Assembly (NCBI RefSeq): GCF_025989145.1
Contig: NZ_JAPDNQ010000001.1
Span: forward strand, 310,001 to 374,000
Origin: Microbacterium sp. SSM24
GTDB taxonomy: Bacteria > Actinomycetota > Actinomycetes > Actinomycetales > Microbacteriaceae
DNA: 64,000 bases
Direction of reading: 5' to 3'
The notes below the pieces were generated by a model, which made no database searches, was not told the DNA's origin, and saw only the letters and a list, made by a program, of their open reading frames with translations. Below are positions 15,017 to 31,764 of this stretch, piece after piece. Each line of letters opens with the position of its first letter. Positions within the stretch are counted from its first letter, which is position 1. The translations under genes were made by a program, and so were the position numbers.

Positions 15017-15024
15017 CCGACCTG

Positions 15025-15084
15025 CCGGCTTCGGCCGGTTAGGGCGGCGTGGCCGCCGGTGCCTGGCGAGGTGCACCGGCGGCC
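15025..15084 (+). terminator. Terminator hairpins after the fasciclin gene
   Basis: A small CCGGC-TTCG-GCCGG hairpin (15025-15038) is followed by a perfect 12-bp stem (15051-15062 with 15073-15084, loop of 10 nt) and then TCGTCGTGCTC. The second is the likely terminator. Confidence 0.6.
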
Positions 15085-15221
15085 TCGTCGTGCTCCCGGC
15101 AATGCACGCGTCCCGCAGGCTCGTCAAGGGTGTCGTTCCGGGGCGGGTGAGGGCGTAGCGTCGGAGATCGCTCGGCCCGACGATCGACTCCCCCGCGACC
15201 GCGAGACCGGCGGGGAGGACC

Positions 15222-16559
15222 ATGTCGGATCTGCGCGAGGCCGGTGACCTGTCGACCGGCGAGATTCTGGACCACCGGTACGTGCTCAGGGAGCGCATCG
15301 GCGAGGGCGGGATGGCACGCGTCTACCGCGCCGACGACCAAGCACTCGGCCGCACCGTCGCGATCAAGGTCCTTCGCGGCGTCGACGCGATCGGATCGGT
15401 CGATCGCGCCAGGACCGAGACGACGCTCCTCGCCGCACTCAACCACCACGGGCTGGTCACCCTCTTCGACGCCCACATCTCCGACGAGGGCGCGAGCTAT
15501 CTCGTCATGGAGTACGTCGACGGGATCACGCTCCGAGAGCGCATCGCGCAAGGCCCGATCCCGCCGGCCGAGACCGCGTCGATCGCCGTCGATCTGGCGG
15601 AGGCGCTCCACGTCGCGCACTCCTCCGACATCGTCCATCGCGACATCAAGCCCGCGAACGTGCTGCTGTGGAAGTCACCACTGCCCGGACGAGAATGGCG
15701 CGCGAAGCTCGCCGATTTCGGAATCGCGCATCTGCTCGACTCGGCGCGCGTCACGACCCCGGGCATGATCATCGGAACGGTCGCGTACGTGGCGCCCGAG
15801 CAGGCGCGCGGCGAGGAGCCCGCGCCACCGGCCGACATCTACGCACTCGGCCTGCTGCTCATGGAGGCCCTCACCGGCAAGCGGCCGTTCGCCGACGCCG
15901 AGGGCATCGGCTCGGTGATGGCACGGCTCGCTGCACCGCCGGAGGTGCCCGGATCGGTGGAGCCCGCGTGGCGAGGGCTGCTCCGCGGCATGACCGCGAT
16001 GCGTCCCGAGGATCGCCCGACGGCGCTGGAGGTGGCGATCACCGCTGAACGCCTTGCGCTCGGGAGCGCGCCGCTCCCCGCCGCGCTCGCCGAGGAGCCG
16101 ACGCAGGAGACACCGGTCATGAAGACCGGCCCGACACGGATGCTGCCCGCGCTGATGGTCGGCGATACCGGCGCCACCGCGCTGATGCCGCCGCCCCTCC
16201 CTGTCGCCGCGGCGCCGGCTCCGGGTTCCGCAGTGCCGCGTCCGGCGGGACGCGACGACCGGCGCCGGCGAACGGTCCTGATCGCCCTCATCGTCGCGGC
16301 CGTGCTCGCAATCGGGGCGGTGTCGGCCTCGCTCTGGTGGTCGACGAAGGCCGGCGGTGCAGACGTGCCCGAGCCCGTGCCCACCGTGGTCGACACTCCG
16401 TCGCCGCAGCCGAGTGAAACGTCCGTCGTCGACACCCCCGCGCCGCAGCCGAGCGAACCCGGGACCGATACCAGCGGAAACGGCAAGGGGAACGGCAACG
16501 GCAACAGCGGGCCGGGCAACAACAACGGGAACGGGAAGGGGAACGGCAAGAAGCCGTGA
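15222..16559 (+). CDS. Membrane Ser/Thr protein kinase (PknB-like family)
   Basis: 445 aa from an ATG after GGGGAGGA. The kinase domain (about 18-275) has the glycine loop GEGGMARVY, Lys in VAIKVL, catalytic loop HRDIKPANVLL, ADFGIAHLL, the activation segment ending GTVAYVAPEQ, and DIYALGLLLMEALTGKRPF. One membrane helix spans about 350-372. The outside part is short, with two near-repeats TPSPQPSE/TPAPQPSE and a Gly/Asn/Lys tail, and no PASTA domain. It is an orphan kinase with unknown substrate. Confidence 0.9.
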   Translation: MSDLREAGDLSTGEILDHRYVLRERIGEGGMARVYRADDQALGRTVAIKVLRGVDAIGSVDRARTETTLLAALNHHGLVTLFDAHISDEGASYLVMEYVDGITLRERIAQGPIPPAETASIAVDLAEALHVAHSSDIVHRDIKPANVLLWKSPLPGREWRAKLADFGIAHLLDSARVTTPGMIIGTVAYVAPEQARGEEPAPPADIYALGLLLMEALTGKRPFADAEGIGSVMARLAAPPEVPGSVEPAWRGLLRGMTAMRPEDRPTALEVAITAERLALGSAPLPAALAEEPTQETPVMKTGPTRMLPALMVGDTGATALMPPPLPVAAAPAPGSAVPRPAGRDDRRRRTVLIALIVAAVLAIGAVSASLWWSTKAGGADVPEPVPTVVDTPSPQPSETSVVDTPAPQPSEPGTDTSGNGKGNGNGNSGPGNNNGNGKGNGKKP

Positions 16560-16591
16560 CCTGCTAGGACGATCGGATGCCACGCGGGAAG

Positions 16592-16597
16592 TAGGCT
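16592..16597 (+). promoter_or_regulatory. Candidate -10 element of tRNA-Lys
   Basis: TAGGCT fits TANNNT and lies 10 bp before the mature tRNA 5' end. This is close but possible for a short leader. Confidence 0.35.
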
Positions 16598-16607
16598 TGG
16601 AGGCCGC

Positions 16608-16680
16608 GGGCCTCTAGCTCAGTCGGTAGAGCATCGGACTTTTAATCCGCGGGTCGTGGGTTCGAGCCCCACGGGGCCCA
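16608..16680 (+). tRNA. tRNA-Lys (anticodon TTT)
   Basis: 73 nt with a complete cloverleaf. The acceptor stem GGGCCTC pairs with GGGGCCC (one G-U), the D-arm contains AGCTCAGTCGGTAGAGC, the anticodon loop is CTTTTAA within GGA/TCC pairs, and the T-arm contains GTGGGTTCGAGCCCCAC. CCA is not encoded in full. The accessory region begins immediately downstream. Confidence 0.97.
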
Positions 16681-16685
16681 CCGCA

Positions 16686-16860
16686 TCAACTCCCCACCGC
16701 CGAGCGCGCCGTCTGCCGGGCGTGCACCGTCAAGTCTCCCCCGCGCCGGGCGCGGAACAGCTCGAGGCGACCGGGGTCGATCCGGCCGATCTCGCGCAAA
16801 GCGGCGCCGACGTAGGTCTGCGCACCTCGGGGTCGGCTGCGGGCTGTGGCGTGCGGGCCG
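16686..16860 (-). pseudogene. Decayed 3' fragment of an AlkD-like DNA alkylation repair gene
   Basis: The last 44 codons read as TYVGAALREIGRIDPGRLEL and onward to HARQTARSAVGS, matching the C-terminus of the intact gene at 33802-34464 at about 34 of 44 residues. Upstream the similarity (AADPEVR) continues in another frame, implying a one-base deletion near 16828, and then fades. It lies on the minus strand directly behind tRNA-Lys. It is a relic, not an expressed gene, and its relation to the intact copy suggests the region between them was inserted or exchanged. Confidence 0.7.
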
Positions 16861-17176
16861 CTCGAGCGATGACGCACACGCGCCGGGTCGAGCGAATCCG
16901 ATTGCCTCTTCGTTCGTCGGGCGCCTTTCGGGCATCGGACCGCCCGCGGTAATCGTTCGCTCGCCGCGCCAGCGAGCTGACCGGCCGCGTCGCTCCTTGA
17001 GTCGCACCTATGCCGACCCGCTACCGGGCAGGGAGGCTGGGGCACGTCGATCCCGGACGAGGACGCGCGGATCTCGCGAGTCAACTAGCCCGTGGTCGAG
17101 CCCGGCAGCCTACCTCCGAGCGCGCGACCGTGCTGATCGACTTCCTTCCAGATTCCTGGGCATCGGGAGTATGCGC
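16861..17176. other. Non-coding stretch at the left edge of the accessory region
   Basis: About 315 bp follow the pseudogene fragment before the candidate abi promoter. Codon bias is absent in all frames, no tRNA 3'-end duplicate was found and no transposon end is obvious. It appears to be decayed DNA. Confidence 0.4.
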
Positions 17177-17205
17177 TTGAGGCGGGAACCGTATCTAGCT
17201 AAGGT
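17177..17205 (+). promoter_or_regulatory. Promoter for the abi-associated RNA
   Basis: TTGAGG (17177-17182) and TAAGGT (17200-17205) are separated by 17 bp, a good sigma-70-type arrangement. Transcription would begin near 17212. An in-frame TTG at 17205 would lie inside the -10 box, which argues against it as the abi start. Confidence 0.45.
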
Positions 17206-17211
17206 TGATCT

Positions 17212-17264
17212 CAACTAGACCCGCCAAGCCTCTCCACGATGCTCAAACCGGCGGGTTATTTTTT
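17212..17264 (+). ncRNA. AbiF-type antitoxin RNA candidate ending in an intrinsic terminator
   Basis: The segment GACCCGCC (17218-17225) pairs with GGCGGGTT (17250-17257) as an 8-bp stem including one G-U pair, enclosing a 24-nt loop. It is followed at once by TTATTTTTTC, a rare clear U-run in this GC-rich genome. The predicted RNA is about 50 nt and ends three bases before the HEPN gene. Structured RNAs immediately upstream of Abi_2/AbiF genes are known (AbiF RNA motif) and have been reported as antitoxins. The hairpin and U-run are seen; the antitoxin role is inferred from the family. Confidence 0.6.
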
Positions 17265-17267
17265 CTT

Positions 17268-18197
17268 GTGCCACAAAGCCGACTAGAGATCGTACGAGGG
17301 TCGACGCCCTACCTGAAGCCGCCGCTCGACCTCGGGGCGCAGGCAGAGTTGCTGATCGCACGAGGCCTCCAGTGCGATAGGCCAGCGCTTGTAGCGTCGC
17401 TTAGCAGGATTGGCTATTACCGACTCACCGGCTACTTGTGGTGGTACCGCCTCGACGCCGAGCCTTCGGGATCGGCCGAGCTGATCCCTGGCACGACACT
17501 CGACGATCTGCATCGCCTCTATGAGTTCGACGCGAAGCTGCGATCGATCGTGATGGCCATGACCGACGTTATAGAGGTGTGGTTCCGTGGCGCCTTCGCC
17601 AATACGACGGGAATCAGGCTTGGTGCGTTCGGCTATCTCGAGCGTGCCAACGCTCTCGGTGCGGATGCACTCGAGCGTGATAAGCGGAAACTCACCGAAA
17701 GACTTGAGGATCCGAGTGAGAGCTTTCTTGCGCATTTCCTGGAGAAGTACTCGAATCCATACCCGCCCGTGTGGATGATGGTGGAGCTTTCGTCGCTCGG
17801 CTTGCTTTCGAAGTGGTACGACAATCTCGCCTCGGCGTCGCTTAGGCAGTCGATCGCCGATGGAGTGAGGCTCAACCACTCAGTCCTAGGCGGGTTCTTG
17901 AGAACGTGGACGGTTGTTCGAAACGTCGCAGCGCATCATGGACGCCTATGGAACCGACGCTTCGCGACGAAGATGAGCGCACCCAAGAAGCCTGAGTTGT
18001 TGAGGATCGCAACCGACGGCGCAGACTACTCTCGCATCTACCCGTATCTGGCAACCGCTGCGTACCTGACGAGTGTCATCGACCCGTCGAGCGACCTCCG
18101 CCAACGACTCGTGAACCTGCTGCTGTCTGCGGACGATGGATGGCTCGACGAGATCGACGCACCTCGGGCATTCGAGAACGATTCAATCTGGCTGTAG
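17268..18197 (+). CDS. Abi_2 / AbiF-family HEPN abortive-infection protein
   Basis: 309 aa from the GTG at 17268, just after the U-run. Abi_2 signatures are IGYYRLTGYLWWYR (about 48-61), YEFDAKLRSIV (85-95) and the RNase motif RNVAAHHGRLWNR (218-230), an R-x4-H HEPN active site. No membrane segment is seen. HEPN proteins of this type cleave RNA and arrest growth on phage infection. No Shine-Dalgarno precedes the GTG, so expression may depend on read-through of the upstream RNA. Codons are less GC-biased than in flanking core genes, consistent with transfer. The family is sure; the phage defence role is inferred. Confidence 0.88.
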   Translation: MPQSRLEIVRGSTPYLKPPLDLGAQAELLIARGLQCDRPALVASLSRIGYYRLTGYLWWYRLDAEPSGSAELIPGTTLDDLHRLYEFDAKLRSIVMAMTDVIEVWFRGAFANTTGIRLGAFGYLERANALGADALERDKRKLTERLEDPSESFLAHFLEKYSNPYPPVWMMVELSSLGLLSKWYDNLASASLRQSIADGVRLNHSVLGGFLRTWTVVRNVAAHHGRLWNRRFATKMSAPKKPELLRIATDGADYSRIYPYLATAAYLTSVIDPSSDLRQRLVNLLLSADDGWLDEIDAPRAFENDSIWL

Positions 18198-18350
18198 TGC
18201 GGCCCCGATCGACGCTCGATGGAGGACCAGCTATGGAGTCGCCTCGCTCGATCGCATACGCGCCTCGCAAACTGAGCACTGGCGTGTCTACAGCTTCAAT
18301 GTCGGTGGTCCAGGCTGTACTTTGCAAGGAACAGGATCGGGAGGCTCCTC

Positions 18351-18530
18351 ATGGCGAGACGGTCAGATTCAGCACGCGCAATGACGCCCGCGCTGGCGCC
18401 ACCGGTCGGCGCGGATCCGAGATGGAGTGAGAAACGGGACATCGCGATCCGCGCTCGGGAACTCGCGGCGCAAGCCCGTCAGGGCAAGCCGGCGAGCTTT
18501 CGGAGCGGTGTCGGGCGAATCGCTCCGTGA
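18351..18530 (+). CDS. Small basic ORF (59 aa) coupled to the SDH protease gene
   Basis: An ATG with GGGAGG six bases upstream opens a 59-codon ORF whose TGA overlaps the GTG of the next gene (GTGA, 18527-18530). The protein is basic with MARRSDSARAM at the start and an amphipathic segment KRDIAIRARELAAQARQGK. No family is recognised. The good ribosome-binding site and coupling to the protease gene argue that it is translated; it could be a partner, an inhibitor or merely a leader that sets protease translation. Confidence 0.55.
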   Translation: MARRSDSARAMTPALAPPVGADPRWSEKRDIAIRARELAAQARQGKPASFRSGVGRIAP

Positions 18531-19375
18531 GCGGGTCTTCTAGCGCGACTCATCTGTTTGCCGCGCAACACGCCGATCGGTACGCCCGCCAGGACCTCAT
18601 TCGAGAATACGAGGAACTAGTCGGGGCTCGCCTAATCGTCATGATTGACCAGGTGTTCCCCTACGCCACGACTCTCGTCGAAGAGTTGTTGACTGGTGCG
18701 GATTCGTCAAAGCCGTTGCACCTGCTCTTATCGACGCCCGGCGGCGATGGTGAGGTAGCTGTGCGCCTCGTTCGTGCGATGAAAGCTCGGTGCACCGAGT
18801 TGACCATCATTGTGCCCGACATGGCGAAATCGGCTGGCACGATCATGTGTCTCGGCGCGGACAGAATCATTATGGCCGCCGGAAGTGACCTCGGTCCCAT
18901 CGATCCCCAGATGCAGATCGGCGGGTCACTTGTTGGTGCTCGGGAGATAGATCAGGCGTTGCGCGACGCGGAAGAGCGCGTCGCTGCAGAGCCGAATGCT
19001 TTCCCGTTGTATGCAGGCCTACTGTCGGACGTCAACATGCTAATGATCGAGCAAGCCCGCTCGGCTACTGCTCGCACGTACGACCTGATCGACGAAGCAC
19101 TCACTTGCAGAGGACTTAACGAGGAAGCACGTAAGGCGATCACGGAGGCAATCCGAGGGCCGCTAGTAGACGACGCGAAGAATCACGCCGCGACTGTCGG
19201 CCCCGAACTCGCCGCGAAGATGGGGCTTCCCGTCGAACTTGCCGATCCCGCAAGCGACTCCTGGCACCTGATCTGGTCGTTGTGGACGCGCTACTTCCAG
19301 CTCGGAGCTTGGCCAGCAGCACAGAACGCCGTTTACGAGGGCCAGCGCGCGTCACAGGTACTCACTCGCGGCTGA
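18527..19375 (+). CDS. SDH-family Clp-fold serine protease
   Basis: 282 aa from a GTG overlapping the upstream small ORF. The fold is marked by LLLSTPGGDGEVAVRLVRAM (oxyanion region) and PDMAKSAGTIMCLGADRIIM, where Ser102 in KSAGT is the probable nucleophile, followed by DLGPIDPQM. There is no signal peptide or membrane helix, so it is probably cytosolic. SDH proteins are distant relatives of SppA/ClpP. Clp-fold proteases of this kind turn up in accessory and defence neighbourhoods; its substrate is unknown. It lies between the HEPN toxin and the ImmA/ubiquitin-like modules. Confidence 0.8.
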   Translation: MSGSSSATHLFAAQHADRYARQDLIREYEELVGARLIVMIDQVFPYATTLVEELLTGADSSKPLHLLLSTPGGDGEVAVRLVRAMKARCTELTIIVPDMAKSAGTIMCLGADRIIMAAGSDLGPIDPQMQIGGSLVGAREIDQALRDAEERVAAEPNAFPLYAGLLSDVNMLMIEQARSATARTYDLIDEALTCRGLNEEARKAITEAIRGPLVDDAKNHAATVGPELAAKMGLPVELADPASDSWHLIWSLWTRYFQLGAWPAAQNAVYEGQRASQVLTRG

Positions 19376-19476
19376 AGTCAACTGTCGCACGGTGTGCGGA
19401 GACACCCTCCAAAGCCTTTGGCAACGACGGCGGTCGACCAAGTCGTGGCGACCTCCGTCGGTGGCCACGGCGCGAT

Positions 19477-20364
19477 TCAGATGAGGGTGAGCCGTTGTCC
19501 GGCGGCCCGCGATCGCCGAGCGAGAACGATGAATCCGTTGCGGCCATTTACGAATCCCTCGGCTGCGAACCGGACTGCACCTCTGTTGGTCTGCAAGACC
19601 ATCTCACATGCGTCGATCTTGCCTCTCTTGTCGGGGCGGATCGCCGAGATGCCGGGGTAGATTGCGGGGGTCAACGCCTTGGGCAACATCTGCCGGACCG
19701 GCCCGTACTTCTTGGCGAAGCTGACGGACTGGCTAGTTATACCCTCGAAGATCGGTAGGGCGCCGCTGGCGCTCGAGAACATGCCTGTCCCCACGACGGC
19801 AACGGGTCTGCTGCTATCGGAGATGTAGCGCCGGATGGCCGCGGCTGCTGAAACCTGATACCGGCCGTTCAGGGCAAGTGGTACATCGAGTGATGGAGCC
19901 CAGTCATCCGCTTCTCGGTTGAACCGATCTCCGGCAAAGAGGATCTCCGCCGAGAAGAGGTTCGCTTCGAGCTCCAGCAGGTCCCGGGTGTCTGTGGCAA
20001 GTGTGTGGTAGTCATCTGCAAAATAGGCGAGTCGGTGCCACGGGAGTGTGTGGTGGCCAATCTCATGCGCCTCTGTGAATCTTCGGCGATCGAGGGTTAG
20101 GGATGCGTCAACGTAGTAGCGCCGCTCCTGCACGTCCAATAGGCCGAGGACTGTACCTCGAAGCTTGTGAATGATCGCTCGGATGCCGGCAGGCAAATCG
20201 ATGTGCCCACCCAGATCGAACAGCGCCTCCTTATGGAGCTCAGCTGCAGCTGCGATGTCGGCGAGCGGGACGGGAAGTTCTTCACCCGCTGATGCCGCGC
20301 GCAATGCGCCACGCGCGTATCGTCGAACGTCTCGCTCGCTTGAGAGCAGCTGCAGCGCGGTCAT
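19477..20364 (-). CDS. ImmA/IrrE-type zinc metallopeptidase
   Basis: 295 aa. The zinc motif HEIGHH is at about 100-105 after RRRFTEAH, and ELEANLFSAEIL (about 130) supplies the third ligand, the standard COG2856 arrangement. The C-terminal half is a less conserved domain. ImmA peptidases cleave a partner XRE repressor to induce a mobile element or a defence operon. The gene overlaps the upstream XRE gene by four bases (ATGA), so they form one transcript that diverges from the ubiquitin-like operon. Confidence 0.88.
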   Translation of the reverse strand: MTALQLLSSERDVRRYARGALRAASAGEELPVPLADIAAAAELHKEALFDLGGHIDLPAGIRAIIHKLRGTVLGLLDVQERRYYVDASLTLDRRRFTEAHEIGHHTLPWHRLAYFADDYHTLATDTRDLLELEANLFSAEILFAGDRFNREADDWAPSLDVPLALNGRYQVSAAAAIRRYISDSSRPVAVVGTGMFSSASGALPIFEGITSQSVSFAKKYGPVRQMLPKALTPAIYPGISAIRPDKRGKIDACEMVLQTNRGAVRFAAEGFVNGRNGFIVLARRSRAAGQRLTLI

Positions 20365-20705
20365 CGTTGGTCCCCGCGCTTTTGACGGATGAACGCGAGA
20401 TAGTTGCGCAGTTCCGCAGCCTCGTCTTCGGTCAGTTCTTCGAGGGCACGCAAAGGGATGCCTGCCAACGCGCTCGGACGCACGGCGTCGCCATCATTCG
20501 GGACATGGTGACCCGCGCGCCGCATGAGGTCGCTGTAGTCGATCCCGTACACGTCGGACAGTTTGTAGAGAACATTCGGGGAAGGGCGATCGACCGCGTT
20601 GCTCTCGATCTGGGACAGATAGCCGTTGGTGATCTGGGTTTGTGCTTCCACCCCCCGGAGACTCAGGCCGGTCGCCTTTCGACTCTTCTTGAGATGGTCC
20701 CCCAA
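20361..20705 (-). CDS. XRE-family HTH repressor partner of ImmA
   Basis: About 114 aa from the TTG at 20705, which has GAGGAAAG just upstream. The HTH is DHLKKSRKATGLSLRGVE with TNGYLSQIESN as recognition helix. A longer form from the ATG at 20816 would add 37 residues including a hydrophobic segment (SALALGIVAVAAIVALA) and has no ribosome-binding site; I prefer the short form but cannot exclude a membrane-tethered repressor. It presumably binds the inverted repeats in 20834-20895 and represses both directions until ImmA cleaves it. Confidence 0.8.
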   Translation of the reverse strand: MGDHLKKSRKATGLSLRGVEAQTQITNGYLSQIESNAVDRPSPNVLYKLSDVYGIDYSDLMRRAGHHVPNDGDAVRPSALAGIPLRALEELTEDEAAELRNYLAFIRQKRGDQR

Positions 20706-20833
20706 TCTTTCCTCGGCGGTCGAGCGGGGCGCGAGCGCGACGATGGCGGCTACGGCGACGATGCCCAGCGCCAGCGCCGACGTAATCGGACGAAGAGGTT
20801 GTGTTGTTGACCGCATGTAGCAAGTTTGCCCGA

Positions 20834-20895
20834 ATCTGCTTGATCTGTCGAGCGCTTGCGCTCCGCGGGATGCATGCGTACTCTATCAAGCAGAT
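20834..20895. promoter_or_regulatory. Divergent operator region with paired inverted repeats
   Basis: ATCTGCTTGAT (20834-20844) and its perfect complement ATCAAGCAGAT (20885-20895) flank a second palindrome, GAGCGC-TT-GCGCTC (20850-20863). All lie between the XRE/ImmA genes and the ubiquitin-like operon. They are the likely binding sites of the XRE repressor and would cover both promoters. Confidence 0.65.
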
Positions 20896-20931
20896 GCCGC
20901 ACAGATCGTGCGCCGAGAAGGGAGGGTCACG

Positions 20932-21360
20932 ATGACCCCCAGCAGCCCCATCAACCTGCAGATCAACATCGATGGCACGGCTTACAACGTTCACGACTCC
21001 GACCAGGAGGCTGCAGCACTGCTGCGCCTCGCTGATCACGACCCGAAGACCTTCGACCTGTTCCTCGTGAAGAAGGATGGCGTCGAGGTGAAGATCCGTG
21101 ACAACCAGATCGTCAACCTCGAGGACGGCGATCGGTTCGTCTCCCGCCGGAACCTCCGGTTCACGATCGATGGTGAGCCGTTCCGCAGCTACGACGACGA
21201 TCAGGCGGCCGCCGCACTGGTGCGCCTTGCGGGCCTGGATCCGGCTGTCTTCGACCTGGCCCGCGTCGGAAGCCCTACAGCGTTCGCGGACGACGAGATC
21301 GTCACGATCGCTGACGGCGACGCGTTCGTCACCATTAAGCACGTCGGTGGCGTGGCGTGA
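20932..21360 (+). CDS. Multi-ubiquitin domain protein (tandem ubiquitin-like modifier)
   Basis: 142 aa from an ATG with AAGGGAGG seven bases upstream. Two beta-grasp repeats are visible: NLQINIDGTAYNVHDSDQ to LEDGDRFVS (about 8-71) and LRFTIDGEPFRSYDDDQ to IADGDAFVTIKHVGG (about 75-140). Both share the DQ(E/A)AAALxRLA and DGDxFV positions of the Multi_ubiq family. The C-terminus is KHVGGVA: a Gly-Gly followed by two residues, as in ubiquitin precursors that need trimming. The next ORF overlaps its stop (GTGA). It is predicted to be activated by the E1 domain and trimmed by the JAMM domain of the third gene. The target is unknown. Confidence 0.85.
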   Translation: MTPSSPINLQINIDGTAYNVHDSDQEAAALLRLADHDPKTFDLFLVKKDGVEVKIRDNQIVNLEDGDRFVSRRNLRFTIDGEPFRSYDDDQAAAALVRLAGLDPAVFDLARVGSPTAFADDEIVTIADGDAFVTIKHVGGVA

Positions 21361-21737
21361 GCGAGGCACCAGAGTTGTCCGAGGCGTCCCAGCAGTTCAT
21401 CGCCGACATGACTGCTGCGGGCGCGTCGGCGCGCGCCGACGGACCTCGCATCCTCTATGACGTCGTCGCTGTCGGGGGCGCTCTCGCCGGCCAGACCATT
21501 ACGACCGGCGTCAGCATCTCCGAGGTGCAGAGCTGGCCCGCTGTGCCACCCCACTGGATTCACCTTCCGGCGTCCGTCCACTTCACCGAGACCAACATGG
21601 ACGAGACAGACTGCGCGCCCGGTTATGTGAGGCATTCGCGTGACTACAACTACACCGACACCTCCATCCGCCCCGCACGCGCGTGGCTGAGCCACGTCCG
21701 CGGATTCATTTCGATCGCGATCGCTGAGGCGGCCTGA
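21357..21737 (+). CDS. E2-like protein (Prok-E2 family), ubiquitin-like conjugation operon
   Basis: 126 aa from a GTG overlapping the modifier gene. Position between the modifier and the E1 gene, the segment WPAVPPHWIHLPASVHF resembling the proline-rich strand region of E2 folds, and RPARAWLSHVRGFISIA as a C-terminal helix point to a prokaryotic E2-like protein. Cys86 in DETDCAPGY is the only cysteine and therefore the only candidate for a thioester. It would receive the activated modifier and pass it to a substrate. The E2 assignment relies strongly on context; a structure prediction would settle it. Confidence 0.65.
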   Translation: MSEAPELSEASQQFIADMTAAGASARADGPRILYDVVAVGGALAGQTITTGVSISEVQSWPAVPPHWIHLPASVHFTETNMDETDCAPGYVRHSRDYNYTDTSIRPARAWLSHVRGFISIAIAEAA

Positions 21738-21738
21738 C

Positions 21739-23217
21739 ATGCGCTACTCCGTCGCGATGAGCGGCGACACCGAAGCCGTCATGCGCGACCACCTGTTGCG
21801 TGAGGACGGTCAAGAAGACGTCCTTATCGCTACCTATGTGCTCTCCACGGGGATCGAGCGAACCACAGCAGTGATCCGGTCCGTCATCCTCCCTCGAGAC
21901 GGAGAGCGGCACGTCCACGGCAACGCGTCGTTCACCAGCGCCTACGTGCTCCGCGCCGCGCACGAGGCACGAGTCGCGGGGCATGGACTCGCGCTCCTAC
22001 ACTCCCACCCAGGTGGCCACGGCTGGCAGCGCCTCTCGCGCACCGACTGGGAGACCGAGTCTGACTACGAACGAGTGGCCCGCTCCGCCACGAAGATGCC
22101 GATGCTTGGAATGACGCTCGGCGGCGAAAACATCGCGTGGTCGGCGAGGTTCTGGTTCGACCGGACCGAACCGACATGGGCAGAGTCCGTCCGCTCCGTC
22201 TCTCCCGTGCTCGCCGTCACGTGGAACGACGAGCTGCGCCCGGTCCCCAAGATCACCGGAGCACAGGAGCGAACAGTGTCGTCGTGGGGCGATCGCTCTC
22301 AGGGCAGGATCGCACGCCTCCGCGTTCTCGTCGTCGGAGCTGGAAGCGTTGGCCTGGATGTCGCTCAGCGCCTTGCCGCGACCGGGCTCATCACCGTCGG
22401 CGTGATGGACTACGACGCGGTTGAGCGCCGAAACCTGGACCGCATGATCGGCGCAACTCGGCTCGATGCCGCGCTCGGCCGCGCAAAAGTAGACGTCGCG
22501 GCGCGGCTGATGAAATCTGCCGCAACCGCCGACGTCATCGACGTTCGGCGCCACGAGGTCAGCATCACCGATCCTGTCGGCGTCAGCATCGCGCTCGACT
22601 ATGACGTGATCTTCTCCTGCGTCGACCGACCCTGGCCCCGCGCCGTACTCAATGGGATCGCGTACGCCGACCTCATCCCCGTCATTGACGGAGGCATCGC
22701 ATTGACCACGTTCCCGGACGGGCACATGCGAAACGGTATCTGGCGGACCCACACCCTCACCCCCGGTCGGCCGTGTATGGCCTGCATCGGCCAGCTGGTT
22801 GCAGGCGAGGTGTCCTTGGACAAGCTGGGGCTCCTCGAGGACCCTGAGTACATCGAGGGCGCCGGGCGCGAAGCACCGTCGCACCAGAATGTCGCCGCTC
22901 TCTCGGCGAGCGTCAGCGCCTCCCTTCTGGCCCAGTTCGTGAGCCTGGTCGCCCATCCGGGCAGCCGAGGGGCGCCCGCGCCGCTCCACTACGTTCTCTC
23001 CACGCACACCTTGATGCAGTCCGACACATCATGCGGGCCCTACTGTGCCTACGAGAACGCGACCAGGACGGGCGATCGTCGCACCCCAATCGCCGAGCAC
23101 CGGAACGACTGGCGAGAGGAAGTCGAGGCGCGCAAGGCGAAGAGGCACCCGCTCCGACTCCGGATCCTTTCGAGCGTCGAGTACCTGCTGCAGCGGTACA
23201 CCAATCGCCTTCGGTAG
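21739..23217 (+). CDS. JAMM (JAB/MPN) protease fused to ThiF/E1-like adenylating enzyme
   Basis: 492 aa, one base after the E2-like gene. The N-terminal JAMM domain (1-150) has LLHSHPGGHGWQRLSRTD, giving the zinc ligands His88, His90 and Asp103, Ser100, and a probable Glu26. The C-terminal E1 domain (about 190-440) has the nucleotide loop VLVVGAGSVGLDVAQRL (Gly200-Gly205), DYDAVERRNLDRM, FSCVDRPWPR and the zinc pairs CMAC (346-349) and CGPYC (432-436). It should adenylate the modifier C-terminus and also trim or remove it. Ubiquitin-like operons with fused E1-JAB proteins are known from comparative genomics; related systems act in phage defence. Confidence 0.9.
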   Translation: MRYSVAMSGDTEAVMRDHLLREDGQEDVLIATYVLSTGIERTTAVIRSVILPRDGERHVHGNASFTSAYVLRAAHEARVAGHGLALLHSHPGGHGWQRLSRTDWETESDYERVARSATKMPMLGMTLGGENIAWSARFWFDRTEPTWAESVRSVSPVLAVTWNDELRPVPKITGAQERTVSSWGDRSQGRIARLRVLVVGAGSVGLDVAQRLAATGLITVGVMDYDAVERRNLDRMIGATRLDAALGRAKVDVAARLMKSAATADVIDVRRHEVSITDPVGVSIALDYDVIFSCVDRPWPRAVLNGIAYADLIPVIDGGIALTTFPDGHMRNGIWRTHTLTPGRPCMACIGQLVAGEVSLDKLGLLEDPEYIEGAGREAPSHQNVAALSASVSASLLAQFVSLVAHPGSRGAPAPLHYVLSTHTLMQSDTSCGPYCAYENATRTGDRRTPIAEHRNDWREEVEARKAKRHPLRLRILSSVEYLLQRYTNRLR

Positions 23218-23370
23218 TCGGCCCATGCCTATGAATCGGAGCGGTCAAGTAGCGCGAAGGCGAACGATACGGGTCCCACACCTCGCTCCCCGCGACGGCC
23301 CCGCTTACGCGCACCGCCCGGATGGGGATCGAGCCGGGTCGTGGGCTCGGCAAGTCATCTCTGTCGGCAG

Positions 23371-24699
23371 CTACAGACGGCCGGCTGGCCGACCGAGCGC
23401 TGCGGCATAGCGCACGGCGATGCTTCGCGGTTCTTGACCGCGCCTCCCGCTCAGCCAACCTCCGATCGTTTCAGCGACGCCTGTGAGGGTGGCAGCAACG
23501 GCTGCGCCGACGGCGACTGCGACGCCGTTGCTAGGATCCGTGACTCCGCCCGCAACCGCGGACGCCACAATTGCCACGCCGGCGGGGAGTGCTCGGTCGC
23601 GCGCGTGCCGTTTGAGTGAGCTCGACCTGATACCGACCGCGAGCTCTTTCGCTGCGTCGTTCATTCGGGCTTCGAACTCCTTAACGGCGCGCTCCCTTTC
23701 CAATCGGTCCCGCGCCACCGCCGTGCGGTTGTCATCGAGCGCACGTCGGAGGTGGCCGCGGAAGAGTTCGAAGGAGTCGTCGCGACGAATTGTCACTGCT
23801 TCATCGACGGTGAGCTGCATCCCATCGAAGCTCGGGATGTCACCCAGCGACGCCATTCCCACATATTCCGTGTGAGTTGTGGCCCCCGCTATGTCCGAGT
23901 CGACCAGGGATGAGCTATTGACGAGCTCGCGGAAAAGGACTTCCTCTGAGGGGTTGAGAAGTACCACGTCAACCTCTGGATCGTCGGTGCAGACGGCGAG
24001 TTGCCACGACAGGTGGAGAAGGGCCTGCGCAGTCGACCTCATCGCGGCGTGCGCGACCCGAGGATCAGAGAACCTTTGCGGCGGAAGGCCAAGCAACACG
24101 ATCAATTCCTCGCACTGGCGAAGTATTTGCTCACGACCCGTCTCGCTGAAGGCGTAGTAGCCGGCAAAGATCTCCTCGAAGTTGGTGAAGACCGTCATCC
24201 CTGGATCGATGCCGAAATGAGCGAGCACCGCGGCACGATCGCCTGACTTCAGTGATGGACGCGCGTGCTCGACCGCCAGCACGCCTGCTTCGAAGAGCGG
24301 CTCCAACTCGGCGTATATGAACATCATCCGTTTGAACAGCTTGATTGCTCTGAGGTCGTCGCCTAGGCGCGCGGCCTCGCGAATCTCGACGAGGGGGTCA
24401 GCTATGGCGAGACCGTCGTACAGCAGCAGCAGCGTAAGCGCGTCGTCCGCGATCCCATGTCTCTTCCGGCCTGGACGCAAGAGCCCGTGGGGGTTGAAGG
24501 GGTGATGGCTCAGCAGTGGCCACATACCCACGGTGGCTCTGTCGACAAGCGATCGCGATGTGACGTCCCAGTCGTCGGCTTCGAGGACGGATATGACGTC
24601 CTCCATAGGGTCACGAAGCTTCCTGAGTGGCTTCCAGTCGCTCGGAATAAGCGCTAGCCCTTCTCTGATCGAAACGATCGGGTTTTCTCTCAATCCCAT
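23371..24699 (-). CDS. Unrecognised 442-aa protein with C-terminal glycine-rich hydrophobic segment
   Basis: I do not recognise a family. The first 280 residues look globular (WDVTSRSLVDRATVGMWPLL, HHPFNPHGLLRPGRKR, NFEEIFAGYYAFSETGREQI). A charged helical stretch follows (about 320-365, rich in Arg, Glu and Asp, possibly a coiled coil). Residues about 385-425 form a Gly/Ala/Val-rich hydrophobic region resembling glycine-zipper membrane segments. The gene is convergent with the ubiquitin-like operon. By analogy with other defence proteins it could be a membrane-acting effector, but this is speculation. Its ATG at 24699 lies next to a GGGGG run. Confidence 0.65.
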   Translation of the reverse strand: MGLRENPIVSIREGLALIPSDWKPLRKLRDPMEDVISVLEADDWDVTSRSLVDRATVGMWPLLSHHPFNPHGLLRPGRKRHGIADDALTLLLLYDGLAIADPLVEIREAARLGDDLRAIKLFKRMMFIYAELEPLFEAGVLAVEHARPSLKSGDRAAVLAHFGIDPGMTVFTNFEEIFAGYYAFSETGREQILRQCEELIVLLGLPPQRFSDPRVAHAAMRSTAQALLHLSWQLAVCTDDPEVDVVLLNPSEEVLFRELVNSSSLVDSDIAGATTHTEYVGMASLGDIPSFDGMQLTVDEAVTIRRDDSFELFRGHLRRALDDNRTAVARDRLERERAVKEFEARMNDAAKELAVGIRSSSLKRHARDRALPAGVAIVASAVAGGVTDPSNGVAVAVGAAVAATLTGVAETIGGWLSGRRGQEPRSIAVRYAAALGRPAGRL

Positions 24700-25090
24700 C
24701 CCCCAGCGACGCGACGGTGAGCCCCCACACTGCCCGAGCCCTTACGGCTGATGATGTCAGCCGTCACCGTTGTGTCGCCATAGTTGGCCAATGTCGCGAG
24801 CGACTTTGCTTCGCTGACAGCGGCATGCATGCTCGGCGATGGTCGGCGCGGTTCCATTCGGCATGCGCTGCTGTCGCCTGCCGGTGTGCGGGATGACCGT
24901 CCCTGATAGTTCGCACGCCCGCTTGAGGATCCGGTGGTGAATGCGGACACGGCGGAGTCTGTGCGCAAGCTCGACCAGACGTTCGGCGTGGTCTCGCCGG
25001 GTACAGGCTGATGCCTCTCCCGCGACCTGAGACCCCGACACGGGGACATCACACTTCGAGTCTGTTTCGTCTGGTCCCGCGCCGAGGCAG
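24700..25090. other. 391-bp gap without a recognisable gene
   Basis: Short minus-strand frames run through this stretch but have no start signals, family features or codon bias. A small CCCCG-ACA-CGGGG hairpin lies at 25033-25045, near the stop of the next minus-strand gene's neighbour. The region may contain decayed coding DNA. Confidence 0.35.
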
Positions 25091-25678
25091 CTATTGAATT
25101 GTCAGCAAGCGATCCAATTTCGACAGGGTGCTATCTGTGCTGGCCGCGCCTTCCGCGTACGCCGAGATTAGGTCAGCTACGTCCAGAACAATCCCGACTG
25201 CCTCGTCGCTGTCGTCAAATCCCACGTTGAGGTCGATCGTCCAATCCTGCACGAACCGGAGCAGTTCAAGATCCCGTCCAAGTGCGTAAACCCTCACGTT
25301 CGCCAGCTTCTCGTTGAACGACACAAACCAGCGCGTGATCTCGTCGAGACTGTCTGGCCCGTCCCGAATGTGAATTCGAGCGATGAGGGCGGTAGCGACC
25401 ATCCCCCACCCTCGACGTAGCTCCCGAGAGGAGCGATCTTCGCGCTCGCGCTCGCGATCGAGGTGGGCTTCTCGACGTTCGAATTCTCTCTCTCGCTTAT
25501 CCTCCGCTCGCTCAGACTCTCGGAAACGTCGATCCTCTGTGCGCTCTGCATCGCGCGTGAGGCGATCGCGGCGGCGAAGATCGAGGGCGAACAGCCACGT
25601 ACCGATTGCACCAACCGCGGCGCCGGCGAGGGCGCCCCACATCGTTGCCCAAAAGGTTGCCCAAAAGTCCACGAGCAC
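25091..25678 (-). CDS. Membrane-anchored coiled-coil hypothetical protein
   Basis: 195 aa from a GTG at 25678 (another GTG and an ATG follow shortly after). An N-terminal membrane helix (about 5-32, WATFWATMWGALAGAAVGAIGTWLFAL) is followed by a long, very charged helix (about 33-90) dominated by Arg and Glu that is a likely coiled coil, and then a globular C-terminal half. Single-pass proteins of this layout with no known domain are frequent in defence islands and prophages, but the function here is unknown. Confidence 0.6.
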   Translation of the reverse strand: MLVDFWATFWATMWGALAGAAVGAIGTWLFALDLRRRDRLTRDAERTEDRRFRESERAEDKREREFERREAHLDREREREDRSSRELRRGWGMVATALIARIHIRDGPDSLDEITRWFVSFNEKLANVRVYALGRDLELLRFVQDWTIDLNVGFDDSDEAVGIVLDVADLISAYAEGAASTDSTLSKLDRLLTIQ

Positions 25679-25739
25679 ACGCTAGCGCCGGTGCTTCATC
25701 TCATCCGGGATGCGACGCGGCTCCAGGTCGGCGTCGAGG

Positions 25740-25853
25740 GCATTCAAGACCGTCCCCGGCCGCCACTTCCTCGTCGCATTCCGCCTCTACGGCACCGAAC
25801 ACGCCTTCTACGACCAAACCTGGAAACTCGACGACCTCATCAAGATCGACTGA
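25740..25853 (+). pseudogene. C-terminal remnant resembling DUF1214/DUF1254 proteins
   Basis: The frame ending at TGA 25853 reads VPGRHFLVAFRLYGTEHAFY then DQTWKLDDLIKID, which resembles the C-terminus of DUF1254/DUF1214 proteins (FRLYGP...DKTWKLPD). No start or N-terminal part precedes it; the upstream sequence is in other frames. It is a likely relic of a larger gene. The remainder of 25679-26010 holds nothing recognisable. Confidence 0.4.
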
Positions 25854-26010
25854 ACCAGACCCTCCCAAGTGAGCAGGAACGAACGCCACCCTCCCCCCAC
25901 CGGGCACGGCCCGTTTGAGGATCCCTATGCGGGCGGTGCTCGAACGACACACGCGCCCGCGGATCTCGGTGGCCGAGTGTGTTCGAGACCTGAGCAGATA
26001 CGTTTGTGCG

Positions 26011-26559
26011 ATGACTGCTTCGGATGCCTGGAGTCAGCCGACGGTTGTCATCGTCACTGGTTTGCCCGGCACGGGCAAGTCGACGATTGCGGATCGGCTT
26101 GCACAGAATGCGGGCGTTCCCGCGTTCTCTGGAGACTGGTTGCTCGGCGCGATCGCGCCCACGGGCGTTCTCGACGACGTTGATCGCGCAGTCACGATGC
26201 AGGTGTACGAGGGATTGTTCGAGGCGCTATTCCGTCGCCAGCTTATGCTGGGGCAATCCGCGATCCTTGACTGCCTGGCATCCGACCAACTTGTCGACCG
26301 GTGGTCTGCGGTGGCGGCACAGGCCGGCGGACGCGTCGTCACCGTCGAATGCGTCTGCTCCGACGAGCGGGTCCACAGGGCGCGGATCGAGGGCCGACAA
26401 CGGAACATTCCGGGGTGGCACGAGATCGACTGGGCACACGTCGAGTTCATGCGCCAGACCACCAAGCCGCTCACAGTACCTCGACTAACGCTCGACGCGA
26501 TCGATCCGATCGAAGCGAACCTGTCCTCACTCCTGAGCTACACGGGCTGCAACCGCTGA
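26011..26559 (+). CDS. P-loop kinase-like ATPase (AAA_33 / zeta-toxin-like)
   Basis: 182 aa starting MTASDAWSQP. Walker A is TGLPGTGKSTIADRLA (about 16-31) and a DxxL segment, ILDCLASDQLVDRWSAVA, follows in the middle. ECVCSDERVHRARIEGRQ resembles the arginine-containing lid of small nucleotide or antibiotic kinases. Such proteins phosphorylate small molecules or, in zeta toxins, UDP-sugars. No antitoxin-like ORF overlaps it, so a toxin role is not supported. Function beyond nucleotide binding is unknown. Confidence 0.75.
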   Translation: MTASDAWSQPTVVIVTGLPGTGKSTIADRLAQNAGVPAFSGDWLLGAIAPTGVLDDVDRAVTMQVYEGLFEALFRRQLMLGQSAILDCLASDQLVDRWSAVAAQAGGRVVTVECVCSDERVHRARIEGRQRNIPGWHEIDWAHVEFMRQTTKPLTVPRLTLDAIDPIEANLSSLLSYTGCNR

Positions 26560-26641
26560 AAGCTCATCTAGACGATCGGTCAGCGGGCGGTTTGCGCCAA
26601 GGGGCGATGAGGGCGGGCGGCGGGGCATCGGCGACGCGGAT

Positions 26642-27250
26642 TCAGAAAATGTGCGCTTCGCAGGTGGCAAGGAATGCCAGTCGACGACGCTTCAGCTCGC
26701 GGTAGACGGTGGCACGGGAGACGTTGAACAGCTCGGCGATCTCAGTCTGTGTGTACTCGCCCCGATCCTGGACGTCGAAGAGAAGCTTGCGCTGGGTCAT
26801 CGACAGCTTCGGCTGCTTGCCCTTCAAGTGGCCCTTCGCACGAGCCACCGCCATCCCTTCTCTGGTGCGCATGCTGATCAGGTCGCGTTCGAACTCCGCG
26901 ACCATGGCGAGCACGTTGAAAAGCAGCCTTCCGACCGGGTCTGTCGGGTCGTATCTGCTTCCGCCGAGACTGAGTGCGACGCCCTTCGTCGTGAGTTCGT
27001 CGGCGATGTCGCGTGCGTCCTTCACCGATCGGGCGAGCCGGTCGAGTTTGGTGACGACGAGGGTGTCGCCTTCTCGGACGGCGGCGAGTGCCTCGCGCAG
27101 TCCCGGCCTGGCCCGGTTGGTTCCGGTCAGCCCATGATCGACGTAGATGTTCGAATCGATGACCCCCAGTCGCAGTAACGCGTCGCGCTGCGAGGTGAGG
27201 TCTTGATCCGCCGTGGAGACCCTGGCATAGCCAACCTGTATTCCGTTCAT
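26642..27250 (-). CDS. Serine recombinase (Tn3-type resolvase/invertase)
   Basis: 202 aa starting MNGIQVGYARVSTADQDL, where Ser12 is the catalytic residue. The catalytic domain continues with LVVTKLDRLARSVKDARDIA and MVAEFERDLISMRTREGM. The C-terminal HTH is YTQTEIAELFNVSRATVYREL. It could resolve or invert DNA at paired res sites. No transposase, paired inverted repeats or res site were identified nearby, so it is probably a leftover from a mobile element that helped build the accessory region. Confidence 0.92.
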   Translation of the reverse strand: MNGIQVGYARVSTADQDLTSQRDALLRLGVIDSNIYVDHGLTGTNRARPGLREALAAVREGDTLVVTKLDRLARSVKDARDIADELTTKGVALSLGGSRYDPTDPVGRLLFNVLAMVAEFERDLISMRTREGMAVARAKGHLKGKQPKLSMTQRKLLFDVQDRGEYTQTEIAELFNVSRATVYRELKRRRLAFLATCEAHIF

Positions 27251-27389
27251 GCCGCCGACGGTGCCACCATCATCGCGGATACGCACCCAGGATGGATCCT
27301 CATGCGCGCCGTGCACGGATCAGAGAGGTCGGCGGGCGTCCTTGAGGCAGTCCTGTGCGAGTCCGTGGTGGGTTCGGCAGACTTATGCC

Positions 27390-27854
27390 ATGGCTCTCAC
27401 GCGGATGCGTATCGAAGCAGAGGTCCTCGTGCCGCAGGCTCTCACTGATGTGTGGGACTTCCTCAGCGATCCGAAGAACTCCGAGCTGTGGGACAAGAGC
27501 GTTGCGAGCATCGAACCCGTCGACACGCGGCCGGTCGGGCTGGGCTGGGAGGGTACAACGACGGCACCATCGGGCATGCGCCAGAGCTTCCGGATCAGCC
27601 GGTGGGAACCTCCGAAGGCGTTCGCGTTCCAGTTGCAGCAGTCGTCGATGTTCCGCGAGGCCGAGTTGAGCTTCCACCTCGAGCCGACCGCCGGCGAGGT
27701 CCTCATCCTTCATCGACTGGACCTGCAGTTGCGCAACGTACTGCTTTACCCGGTGCTGCGGCTCACTGCGAAGCGAGCGCTCGGCGCTGACCTTCAGTCC
27801 CTGAAGGACTGGCTGGCCAAGACCTATCCCTCCGGGAGAGAACAACGATCGTAG
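27390..27854 (+). CDS. SRPBCC-family (START-like) protein
   Basis: 154 aa starting MALTRMRIEAEVLV. The pattern VPQALTDVWDFLSDPKNSELWD is typical for polyketide-cyclase/dehydrase-type SRPBCC proteins, followed by GMRQSFRISRWEPPKAFAFQL as a beta strand pair and a C-terminal long helix LTAKRALGADLQSLKDWL. These bind hydrophobic ligands in a helix-grip cavity; the ligand is unknown. There is no good ribosome-binding site, so the message may be leaderless. Confidence 0.75.
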   Translation: MALTRMRIEAEVLVPQALTDVWDFLSDPKNSELWDKSVASIEPVDTRPVGLGWEGTTTAPSGMRQSFRISRWEPPKAFAFQLQQSSMFREAELSFHLEPTAGEVLILHRLDLQLRNVLLYPVLRLTAKRALGADLQSLKDWLAKTYPSGREQRS

Positions 27855-27926
27855 ATCGCAGGACCGCACGGATCGTCCACCGTGCTGCGGACTTCGTGTC
27901 ACGCGGGATGACGGTGTGAGGCACAT

Positions 27927-28553
27927 CTAGCGCAAGATGCCGCGTTCTCTGGCTGCCGAGACGGCTGCGGTTCGTGAGGTGACCGCGAGCTTGGTGAAGA
28001 TGTGGGCGAGGTGGGATTTGACGGTGGTCTCGCTGACGAAGAGCTCTGTTGCGATGTCGGTGTTCGAGTGGCCAGCTGCGACAAGCTTGAGTACTTGCAT
28101 CTCGCGACTGCTGAGGCTTGCTTGGGGGGCTCGCATGCGGTTCAGGAGTCGAGAGGCGATGACGGGAGCGAGGGCGCTTTCGCCGGCCGCGGCTGCTCGG
28201 ACTGCTGCTGCGAGCTCGTGGGGTGGAGCATCTTTGAGGAGGTACCCGCTGGCGCCGGCTTCAACGGCTCCCAGGATGTCGGCGTCGGAGTCGTAGTTGG
28301 TGAGCACGAGAACGTAGGGGGCTGCGTCGAGGGCGCGGATACGTCGTGTGGCGTCGGCTCCGGTCGTTGATGCTTGGGCGCCGAACTGGAGATCCATCAG
28401 TACGACGTCAGGATTGCTGTGTTCTGCCGCAGTGACCGCTTCATCTGGTGTGGCAGCTTCCGCGATGACGTCTATGTCTCCCTCGAGGGCGAAGAGAGCC
28501 ACGAGTCCCGCGCGGACGATGGGATGGTCGTCGGCGATGAGAAGCCGGATCAT
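27927..28553 (-). CDS. NarL/LuxR-family response regulator
   Basis: 208 aa. The receiver domain starts MIRLLIADDHPIVRAGLVAL with Asp pair 8-9 and the phospho-acceptor in PDVVLMDLQFG (about Asp54); the switch Lys is in GYLLKDAPP. The C-terminal LuxR HTH is LSSREMQVLKLVAAGHSNTDIATELFVSETTVKSHLAHIF. Its ATG overlaps the stop of the sensor kinase by four bases, so the two form a two-component system. The divergent ABC exporter genes are the probable regulon. Confidence 0.93.
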   Translation of the reverse strand: MIRLLIADDHPIVRAGLVALFALEGDIDVIAEAATPDEAVTAAEHSNPDVVLMDLQFGAQASTTGADATRRIRALDAAPYVLVLTNYDSDADILGAVEAGASGYLLKDAPPHELAAAVRAAAAGESALAPVIASRLLNRMRAPQASLSSREMQVLKLVAAGHSNTDIATELFVSETTVKSHLAHIFTKLAVTSRTAAVSAARERGILR

Positions 28554-29737: not shown

Positions 29738-29900
29738 GGACCGAATCCTACGCATCGACAGGGCGACGGCATCGTCCGAAAGGATGACTTCCCCAGCCAC
29801 CCTTCAGTCGGCAAAGCCTGTGCGGGCGGGCGATGAGATGGCAGGTCAAGAAAGGAAAAGTGGTACGGGTCCCCAGCTCGGGTGACAGGAAAGGAATCTC

Positions 29901-31663: not shown

Positions 31664-31764
31664 CGGATCGGCGGTGAGGTTCCCCGAGAAGTTCGGCTTC
31701 AAGTCAGTAGGTGAGCTGCCGGCGAGCCAGGACCGTCGCGTCGCTCAGCGGATGCAGCAACCGC

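Follow-up and report, generated by a model that had tools for sequence, protein, structure and literature searches.

Introduction

Two features count as hallmarks of ubiquitin-like conjugation: a terminal glycine on the modifier and a relay through cysteine. Among the closest described bacterial systems, the type 6e polyUbl operons (Ubl, ubiquitin-like protein), as set out by Iyer, Burroughs and Aravind in 2006 (PMC1779556), combine a JAB-E1 fusion with one to three Ubl repeats, include a metal-binding protein and in some cases have an E2-like gene sandwiched between the Ubl and E1 genes, actinobacteria being listed; their E2-like domain is described there as inactive, RWD-like and without a cysteine. 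Bub (Citrobacter BubA, BubB and BubCD; PDB 9ea4, 9ea8, 9eae, 9eav and 9d59) has a multi-Ubl, an E2-fold protein and an N-terminal JAMM-E1 fusion, and according to PMC13373217, 219 of 544 Bub operons adjoin CapH plus CapP or CapW. Bil (BilABCD), as given in PMC11354881, comprises two Ubl units, E1, E2 and JAB, with JAB and E1 as separate genes and with an E2 motif named CEHH (Cys, Glu at +6, His at +8 and His at +13). The components of Bub recur in a 64,000-nucleotide stretch of Microbacterium sp. SSM24 (assembly GCF_025989145.1, contig NZ_JAPDNQ010000001.1, positions 310,001 to 374,000; hereafter the window), where three head-to-tail genes at 20932-23217 encode a tandem Ubl, an E2-fold protein and a JAMM-E1 fusion. 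We consider it somewhat probable that these genes represent an actinobacterial branch of Bub-like (type 6e) Ubl operons that follows the whole course proposed below. It is possible, at rather less than an even chance, that an Ala-activated, unprocessed Ubl and an E2 with an invariant serine, sometimes free of cysteine, would together define a branch across Actinomycetota that needs neither terminal glycine nor E2 cysteine.

Organization of the operon

The Ubl gene (20932..21360, + strand, stop included) encodes 142 residues ending in KHVGGVA. The GTG start of the E2-like gene (21357..21737, +, stop included; 126 residues) overlaps its end by 4 bases, and the JAMM-E1 gene (21739..23217, +; 492 residues), recognised from its open reading frame, a ThiF match and alignment to BubCD, starts 1 base after the E2 gene. 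At E<=0.001, 130 homologues of the E2 and 151 of the Ubl were found, and the E1 search gave 2520 matches, of which the distant ones are possibly other ThiF proteins. All three genes were recognised together in 32 of 40 loci (L001-L040); the remaining eight are a paralogue (L002), partial matches (L021, L027 and L030) and distant relatives (L034 and L038-L040) whose Ubl and E2 were not recognised as a full set by the profiles used. Because of these matches and the recurrence of the three genes together, the operon cannot be ascribed to chance. An earlier note, made from the sequence of the window alone, had described a compact three-gene Ubl-E2-JAMM/E1 operon with genes overlapping or 1 base apart, on which the open reading frames and the homologous loci agree, and its view of a little-described subtype was right as well. 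A scan of the 10 proteins between 17205 and 27316 showed no E3-like family, and the E2 is minimal, both as that note had stated. Neither the Ubl nor the E2 of the window received a Bil, CBASS or Bub name from PADLOC, NCBIfam or Pfam, and PADLOC likewise named no Ubl or E2 of L003, L034, L039 and L055.

C-terminal tail of the tandem Ubl

The AlphaFold2 model of the Ubl (mean predicted local distance difference test score, pLDDT, 91.8) makes both beta-grasp units visible, its secondary structure placing repeat 1 at residues 9-73 (20956..21150, +) and repeat 2 at residues 75-136 (21154..21339, +). Pfam Multi_ubiq matches repeat 1 only (residues 10-69; 1.2e-5, above cut-off), and the best Foldseek matches of the model are the multi-ubiquitin proteins 9d5a, 9cd2 and 8u38 (E 1.9e-9). 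The beta-grasp fold of the first protein, on which the earlier note had let its reading depend, is borne out by the model and Multi_ubiq as that of a tandem modifier. A Fer2_4 match on repeat 2 (5e-4, below cut-off) was taken as chance.

The tail Gly139-Gly140-Val141-Ala142 (21346..21357, +) had been read in that note as a precursor end, with the JAMM domain removing Val-Ala, E1 activating the exposed Gly-Gly and Cys86 of the E2 carrying the thioester. The KHVGGVA ending, the intact JAMM domain and the retention of Cys86 in 111 of 121 close-clade sequences speak for such a route, as do the Citrobacter proteins, where BubA and BubB form a single polypeptide, divided after Gly229 in the solved pieces: the BubA PDB constructs (9d59, 9ea8 'BubA(155-229)') end at Gly229, and the BubB construct 9eae_C starts directly after it. 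A removed propeptide should nevertheless vary while the exposed glycine is kept, and the reverse is seen. Among 120 close homologues, Val141 and Ala142 are both present in 120/120, Gly139 in 120/120 and Gly140 in 117/120. In a wider set of 158 tails, which is redundant and pools the 120 hits with 31 loci and a further 7 tail pieces, Val occupies position -2 in 158/158, and position -1 is Ala in 154, Ser in 3 and Glu in 1. At position -3, 131 tails have Gly, 17 have Pro and the other 10 share six different residues. Tails of distant loci end in TAPVA, SAPVA, HHPVA, QGTVA, SAQVA, EASVA, SSPVA, NSPVA, AGPVA and VGDVA, and endings such as PVA, QVA, TVA and HHPVA offer no Gly-Gly to expose.

The same pattern appears on the E1 tree, in which 30 of the 42 rows form a clade with Val-Ala tails (the VA clade; support 100/99) and Gly-Gly tails occur within this clade only as a nested tip. 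The tree carries a tool warning of long outgroup branches that meet, and its 42 E1s omit the paralogue L002, the near-duplicates L006, L012, L031, L043 and L050, the partial or broken L021, L027, L030, L035 and L044/L047, and the weak matches L046 and L048. On the VA clade, the fewest tail changes are 0 at position -2, 1 at -1, 8 at -3, 4 at -4, 10 at -5 and 9 at -6. No part of the tail is thus more constant than Val-Ala, and the wider clade does not retain Gly-Gly, so that removal of Val-Ala by the JAMM domain finds no support in the tails. Rhizobium BubA, in which the encoded stop follows straight after Gly, needs no trimming and its operon still keeps the JAMM residues, and cysteine-free E2s exist (see below); trimming followed by a Cys86 thioester is, in our judgement, improbable.

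Across 28 loci (27 with Ala at the end and one with Ser), each of the four Val codons and each of the four Ala codons is in use, and the Ubl-E2 junction varies between 8 bases of overlap and a gap of 11 bases when starts are set by the analyst, which together argue for selection on the Val-Ala amino acids and not on the start-codon overlap. Furthermore, the last-strand aromatic stands 11 residues from the Ubl end in 155 of 158 tails; a manual count gives the same distance to Gly229 in the Citrobacter constructs, and it is likewise 11 in Rhizobium BubA. This equal distance suggests that in the VA clade a terminal Ala stands where relatives have the terminal Gly, and the encoded Ubl end is probably mature as it is made, Ala being its reactive residue. 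A use of the Val-Ala end outside E1 activation, for instance as a protease degron on the free modifier with conjugation through another group, would be in keeping with the resemblance of small hydrophobic C-termini to ssrA-type degrons and with the ClpP-like SDH-type protease gene near the operon. However, the tail length equals that of the Gly end of the solved BubA constructs, and a similar protease lies near only two other fetched operons (L029 and L055), which leaves this use very improbable.

In two operons from Bradyrhizobium and Deinococcus (L053 and L054), the Ubls carry 3-4 varied residues after a TFG near their end, as would be expected if the modifier were trimmed.

The E2-like protein

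The AlphaFold2 model of the second protein (pLDDT 90.9) has Citrobacter BubB 9eae_C as its best Foldseek match (E 0.047, prob 0.95), with no match at E<=0.001. By profile-profile comparison in hhalign, 56 clade E2s matched 8 type 6e E2s (6 of the BubCD clade and 2 that lie at the border of the actinobacterial clade) with prob 96.1 and E 3.7e-9, and a Ubl profile in place of the E2, as a negative control, gave prob 0.5. The PDB sequence search with the window E2 alone or with 28 E2s found no match, so that the tie of this E2 to Bub rests on folds and profile-profile comparison. Together, the model, the BubB match and hhalign confirm the E2-like fold that the earlier note had made a test of its reading. 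Prok-E2_E (PF14462) did not match the window E2, and among 56 relatives its one hit, at E 0.046, fell below cut-off; Pfam MdcE (E 8e-4, below cut-off; 8 of 56 relatives) was taken as chance.

The single cysteine reported for this protein is confirmed in the open reading frame as Cys86 (codon 21612..21614, +), the carrier proposed in the earlier note. Its column in 121 E2s holds Cys in 111, Thr in 7, Ser in 1, Val in 1 and a gap in 1. Among the 32 locus E2s (near-duplicates included), an equivalent of Cys86 is present in 23 and missing in 9, and five of the 32 (L014, L017, L018, L025 and L026) contain no cysteine whatever. Of 33 tree rows, 20 have the Cys and 13 do not (10 inside the VA clade and 3 outside), which needs at least three changes. 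A Cys thioester on this protein thus cannot be the mechanism common to the clade, and Cys86 finds no support as an obligatory carrier.

The constant residue is Ser94, in an R-H-S-R motif (codon 21636..21638, +), which is Ser in 120 of 121 E2s with one gap and aligns on the Ser of RWSRH in the Rhizobium and Citrobacter Bub E2s in all three profile comparisons. Invariant in 56 diverse E2s are Gly41, Pro61, Pro65, His66, Trp67, His69, Ser94, Arg95, Trp110, His113 and Arg115. A serine acceptor would be the simplest alternative to a Cys thioester, judging from this conservation. The Ser motif is not claimed for the Deinococcus and Bradyrhizobium E2s, whose F-S-W-H aligns ambiguously. In the work of Ye et al., Bub is reported to use ester intermediates on serine; this is not counted as evidence here.

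The main rival to a serine acceptor is a structural role of Ser94, with the E2-like protein as a non-catalytic adaptor (RWD/UEV-like) and E1 itself transferring the Ubl. Such an adaptor would agree with the 2006 account of the type 6e domain (PMC1779556), with the lack of conservation of Cys86, and with the UEV domains among the best VIA matches of the E2. Against it, His66, His69, Ser94, Arg95, His113 and Arg115 among the invariant residues resemble an active or binding site, and a BubCD-BubB complex has been solved, according to its PDB entry title. The adaptor role is accordingly rather unlikely to us, and a serine acceptor is kept as the preferred reading.

The JAMM-E1 fusion

The third protein carries a JAMM/JAB domain at about residues 1-150 (21739..22188, +), delimited by conservation and by alignment to Citrobacter BubCD, and from about residue 180 an E1/ThiF adenylation domain with a C-terminal extension (22276..23217, +; ThiF 3.9e-26, residues 180-350). 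Citrobacter BubCD is its closest solved relative (residues 12-394, E 1.4e-16 by phmmer). In an alignment of 121 E1s, drawn from the best 120 of the 2520 E1 matches, the JAMM ligands His88, His90, Ser100 and Asp103 are present in 121/121 and Glu26 in 119/121 (2 gaps), which upholds the JAMM-E1 fusion with intact zinc ligands of the earlier note. All five ligands are retained in 30/30 VA-clade rows, and L025, outside the VA clade, has Gly at position 100; of nine outgroup rows, 9/9 retain both His along with the Ser and the Asp, and 8/9 retain the Glu. Asp103 is the counterpart of Citrobacter BubCD Asp104, mutated in the solved complexes, and this use of a JAMM-dead D104A protein may be counted in favour of trimming. 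The JAMM domain nevertheless does not imply trimming, because the Rhizobium Ubl is encoded ending in Gly and the JAMM residues are still kept; on these comparisons, deconjugation is the likelier job of the domain than Ubl maturation.

The two cysteine pairs of the earlier note hold in part: Cys346, Cys349 and Cys436 occur in 121/121, and Cys432 in only 12/121. Cys346 and Cys349 are missing from 2 of the 9 outgroup rows (by sequence, Citrobacter and Rhizobium T1473). Cys294 sits in a MoeB-like C-x-D motif; it is replaced in 2 of the 9 outgroup rows, and we do not argue for it as catalytic. Residues 203, 234 and 298 (codons 22345-22347, 22438-22440 and 22630-22632), near the nucleotide loop and the C-x-D motif, are Ser in 29/30, Asp in 30/30 and Pro in 30/30 VA-clade rows; the nine outgroup rows have Gly in 9, Asn in 9 and mostly His (7). 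This switch is possibly tied to the alanine end.

In its own genome, the E1 as query matched the window copy and one short stretch elsewhere (36%, residues 175-272). The E1 scored 2.8e-10 against the PADLOC E1-E2 models and 26.4 of 320 bits, far below cut-off, against 6A-MBL_cap2_3. The E1 gene is broken in G343 (L044 and L047: two pieces, one stop inside) and apparently frame-shifted near its end on the L035 plasmid.

Proposed course of conjugation

By homology, CapH/CapP could keep the operon silent until DNA damage yields single-stranded DNA. The tandem Ubl would then be made with its final Val-Ala C-terminus, which the conservation pattern suggests is not trimmed to Gly-Gly, and the E1 domain would adenylate the terminal carboxylate of Ala142. 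The Ubl might be passed to the E2-fold protein, where Ser94 in R-H-S-R is the best candidate for the acceptor or catalytic residue and Cys86 would be at most a lineage-specific alternative. The Ubl would finally be joined to target amines, and the fused JAMM would dismantle conjugates rather than mature the Ubl.

Three findings limit this reading. First, PVE, THVS and KTVS are the endings of three neighbours that fall just outside the VA clade, and their distance from the last-strand aromatic is 12 residues instead of 11. Second, Gly-Gly is near-constant inside the close clade. Third, the profile link of the E2 is weaker without bridging sequences: against only the 5 Citrobacter/Rhizobium-type E2s, hhalign gave prob 86.3 and E 4.8e-6 for the 56 clade E2s and prob 56.2 and E 1.1e-4 for 28 close E2s, though the serine register holds and our estimate of the proposed course is unchanged.

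Taken on sequence evidence, the Ala-ended modifier and the constant E2 serine suggest that tagging may run without two textbook features. A clade that keeps Val-Ala and the E2 serine and loses Gly-Gly and the Cys would show which features the chemistry needs. If this is true, mass spectrometry should seek a Val-Ala remnant, since a Gly-Gly search would miss such conjugates, and the three-gene system is small enough for in vitro rebuilding.

Regulation, neighbourhood and distribution

Upstream of the Ubl operon and divergent from it lie genes for a CapH-like helix-turn-helix (HTH) repressor (20361..20816, -; PADLOC capH 9e-8, HTH_3 2.3e-9; true start unsure) and a CapP-like ImmA/IrrE protease (M78, HEIGH; 19477..20364, -; PADLOC capP 2.4e-20, Peptidase_M78 2.9e-8, HExxH motif), both Pfam matches being above cut-off, because of which DNA-damage control of the operon is likely. 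Of 23 further loci with at least 1.5 kb of upstream sequence, 17 have an M78 gene no more than 0.65 kb upstream; the misses are L004, L008, L017, L024, L028 and L029, and L005/L006 and L011/L012 are near-duplicates. The 115-base intergenic stretch of the divergent promoter region holds an inverted repeat with perfect 11-base arms (20834..20844 paired with 20885..20895), a length reached in 0 of 500 mononucleotide shuffles. In the upstream stretches of 20 other loci (at most 200 bases each), the longest perfect arms measure 6-12 bases and differ in sequence, so that the repeat is an operator candidate for the window locus only. Promoter-like and terminator-like sites numbered 0.

The distribution of the operon is sporadic: among 198 relatives, 4 have an E1 relative at E<=1e-40, and among 396 genomes from across the phylum 7 have one at E<=1e-20, the own genome counted in both. 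Of 72,556 plasmid records, 174 hold such a relative, at less than 60% identity in 169 cases, and phage records gave 2 weak partial E1 matches, in unannotated Staphylococcus phage records. A very similar actinobacterial operon (L009; E1 of 74% identity) lies on a 4.4-kb contig labelled as a Spirochaetia metagenome-assembled genome, which is probably mis-binned.

The region around the operon looks like a genomic island. A tRNA-Lys gene lies at 16608-16682 (+), after which GC falls from about 0.70 to 0.60-0.67 over 17000-30000, and a serine recombinase gene lies at 26642-27316. No attachment repeat was found, the tRNA-Lys repeats in the window being only 12-base matches; one 16-base direct repeat stands at 17497 and 32045, away from tRNA-Lys. 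An AbiD/Abi_2 gene is present at 17205-18197 (+; AbiD 3.6e-46), and L003 (10756-11607) and L037 (6638-7621) likewise have an Abi-like gene on the downstream side of the operon. The ClpP-like SDH-type serine protease gene is at 18527-19375 (+; PF01972 2.4e-14), with similar stretches near the operons of L029 (9903-10133) and L055 (5816-6178), and its product is a conceivable proteolytic partner of the operon. Convergent with the operon, a gene at 23371-24699 (-) encodes a 442-residue protein that belongs to no Pfam, PADLOC or NCBIfam family above cut-off.

Comparison with known systems

Bil, which the earlier note had named among the known systems, has two Ubl units, E1, E2 and JAB in common with the window operon; however, JAMM and E1 are fused in the window, and at the CEHH positions its E2 has Cys86, Arg92, Ser94 and Tyr99. 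Bil is therefore not the closest relative, Bub/type 6e being closer by E1 phmmer and Foldseek. In contrast to the E2-E1 fusion of CBASS Cap2 and 6A, the window E2 and E1 are separate genes, and neither a CD-NTase nor an MBL partner was found among the 10 scanned proteins. The CapH plus CapP arrangement is shared in that an HTH gene and an M78 peptidase gene are divergent from the operon, whereas L035 and L036 have single longer M78 genes (366 residues, N-terminus HTH-like by eye) instead of the two genes of the window.

With type 6e operons, the window operon shares the JAMM-E1 fusion, the Ubl repeats, the E2-fold gene between them and the regulator pair beside them, and differs in that no metal-binding companion, here taken to be DUF6527, was found and that a cysteine is present in part of the clade; as to the type 6e trait of no conserved catalytic Cys, the window E2 has Cys86 and its family does not keep it. 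DUF6527 is present in 7/7 BubCD-clade loci, one of them unannotated (profile of 6; leave-one-out 6e-20 or better), namely a DUF6527-like frame at L052:5008-5577 (+) on a Jiella plasmid record, and the profile found none in 15000-32000 of the window nor in the other fetched loci (some with at most 1.5 kb of flank). The L053 and L054 operons have an extra gene ahead of DUF6527. A Val-Ala-ended Ubl was not found in the literature by title and abstract start, a scope that left out the two main Bub papers, and we do not claim it as unpublished.

Compared with Bub, whose three components it shares, the window operon encodes a Ubl end of Val-Ala at the distance where the Citrobacter constructs have Gly229, a stand-alone E2 with R-H-S-R for RWSRH and no Prok-E2_E match, and an E1 whose residues 203, 234 and 298 differ by clade, and it has no DUF6527 gene. 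By its sequences and models, the operon is built like, and is kin to, the Bub/type 6e conjugation systems, but its Ubl is not encoded with a terminal Gly and no DUF6527 companion was found, and its most fitting place is as a separate actinobacterial branch of them.

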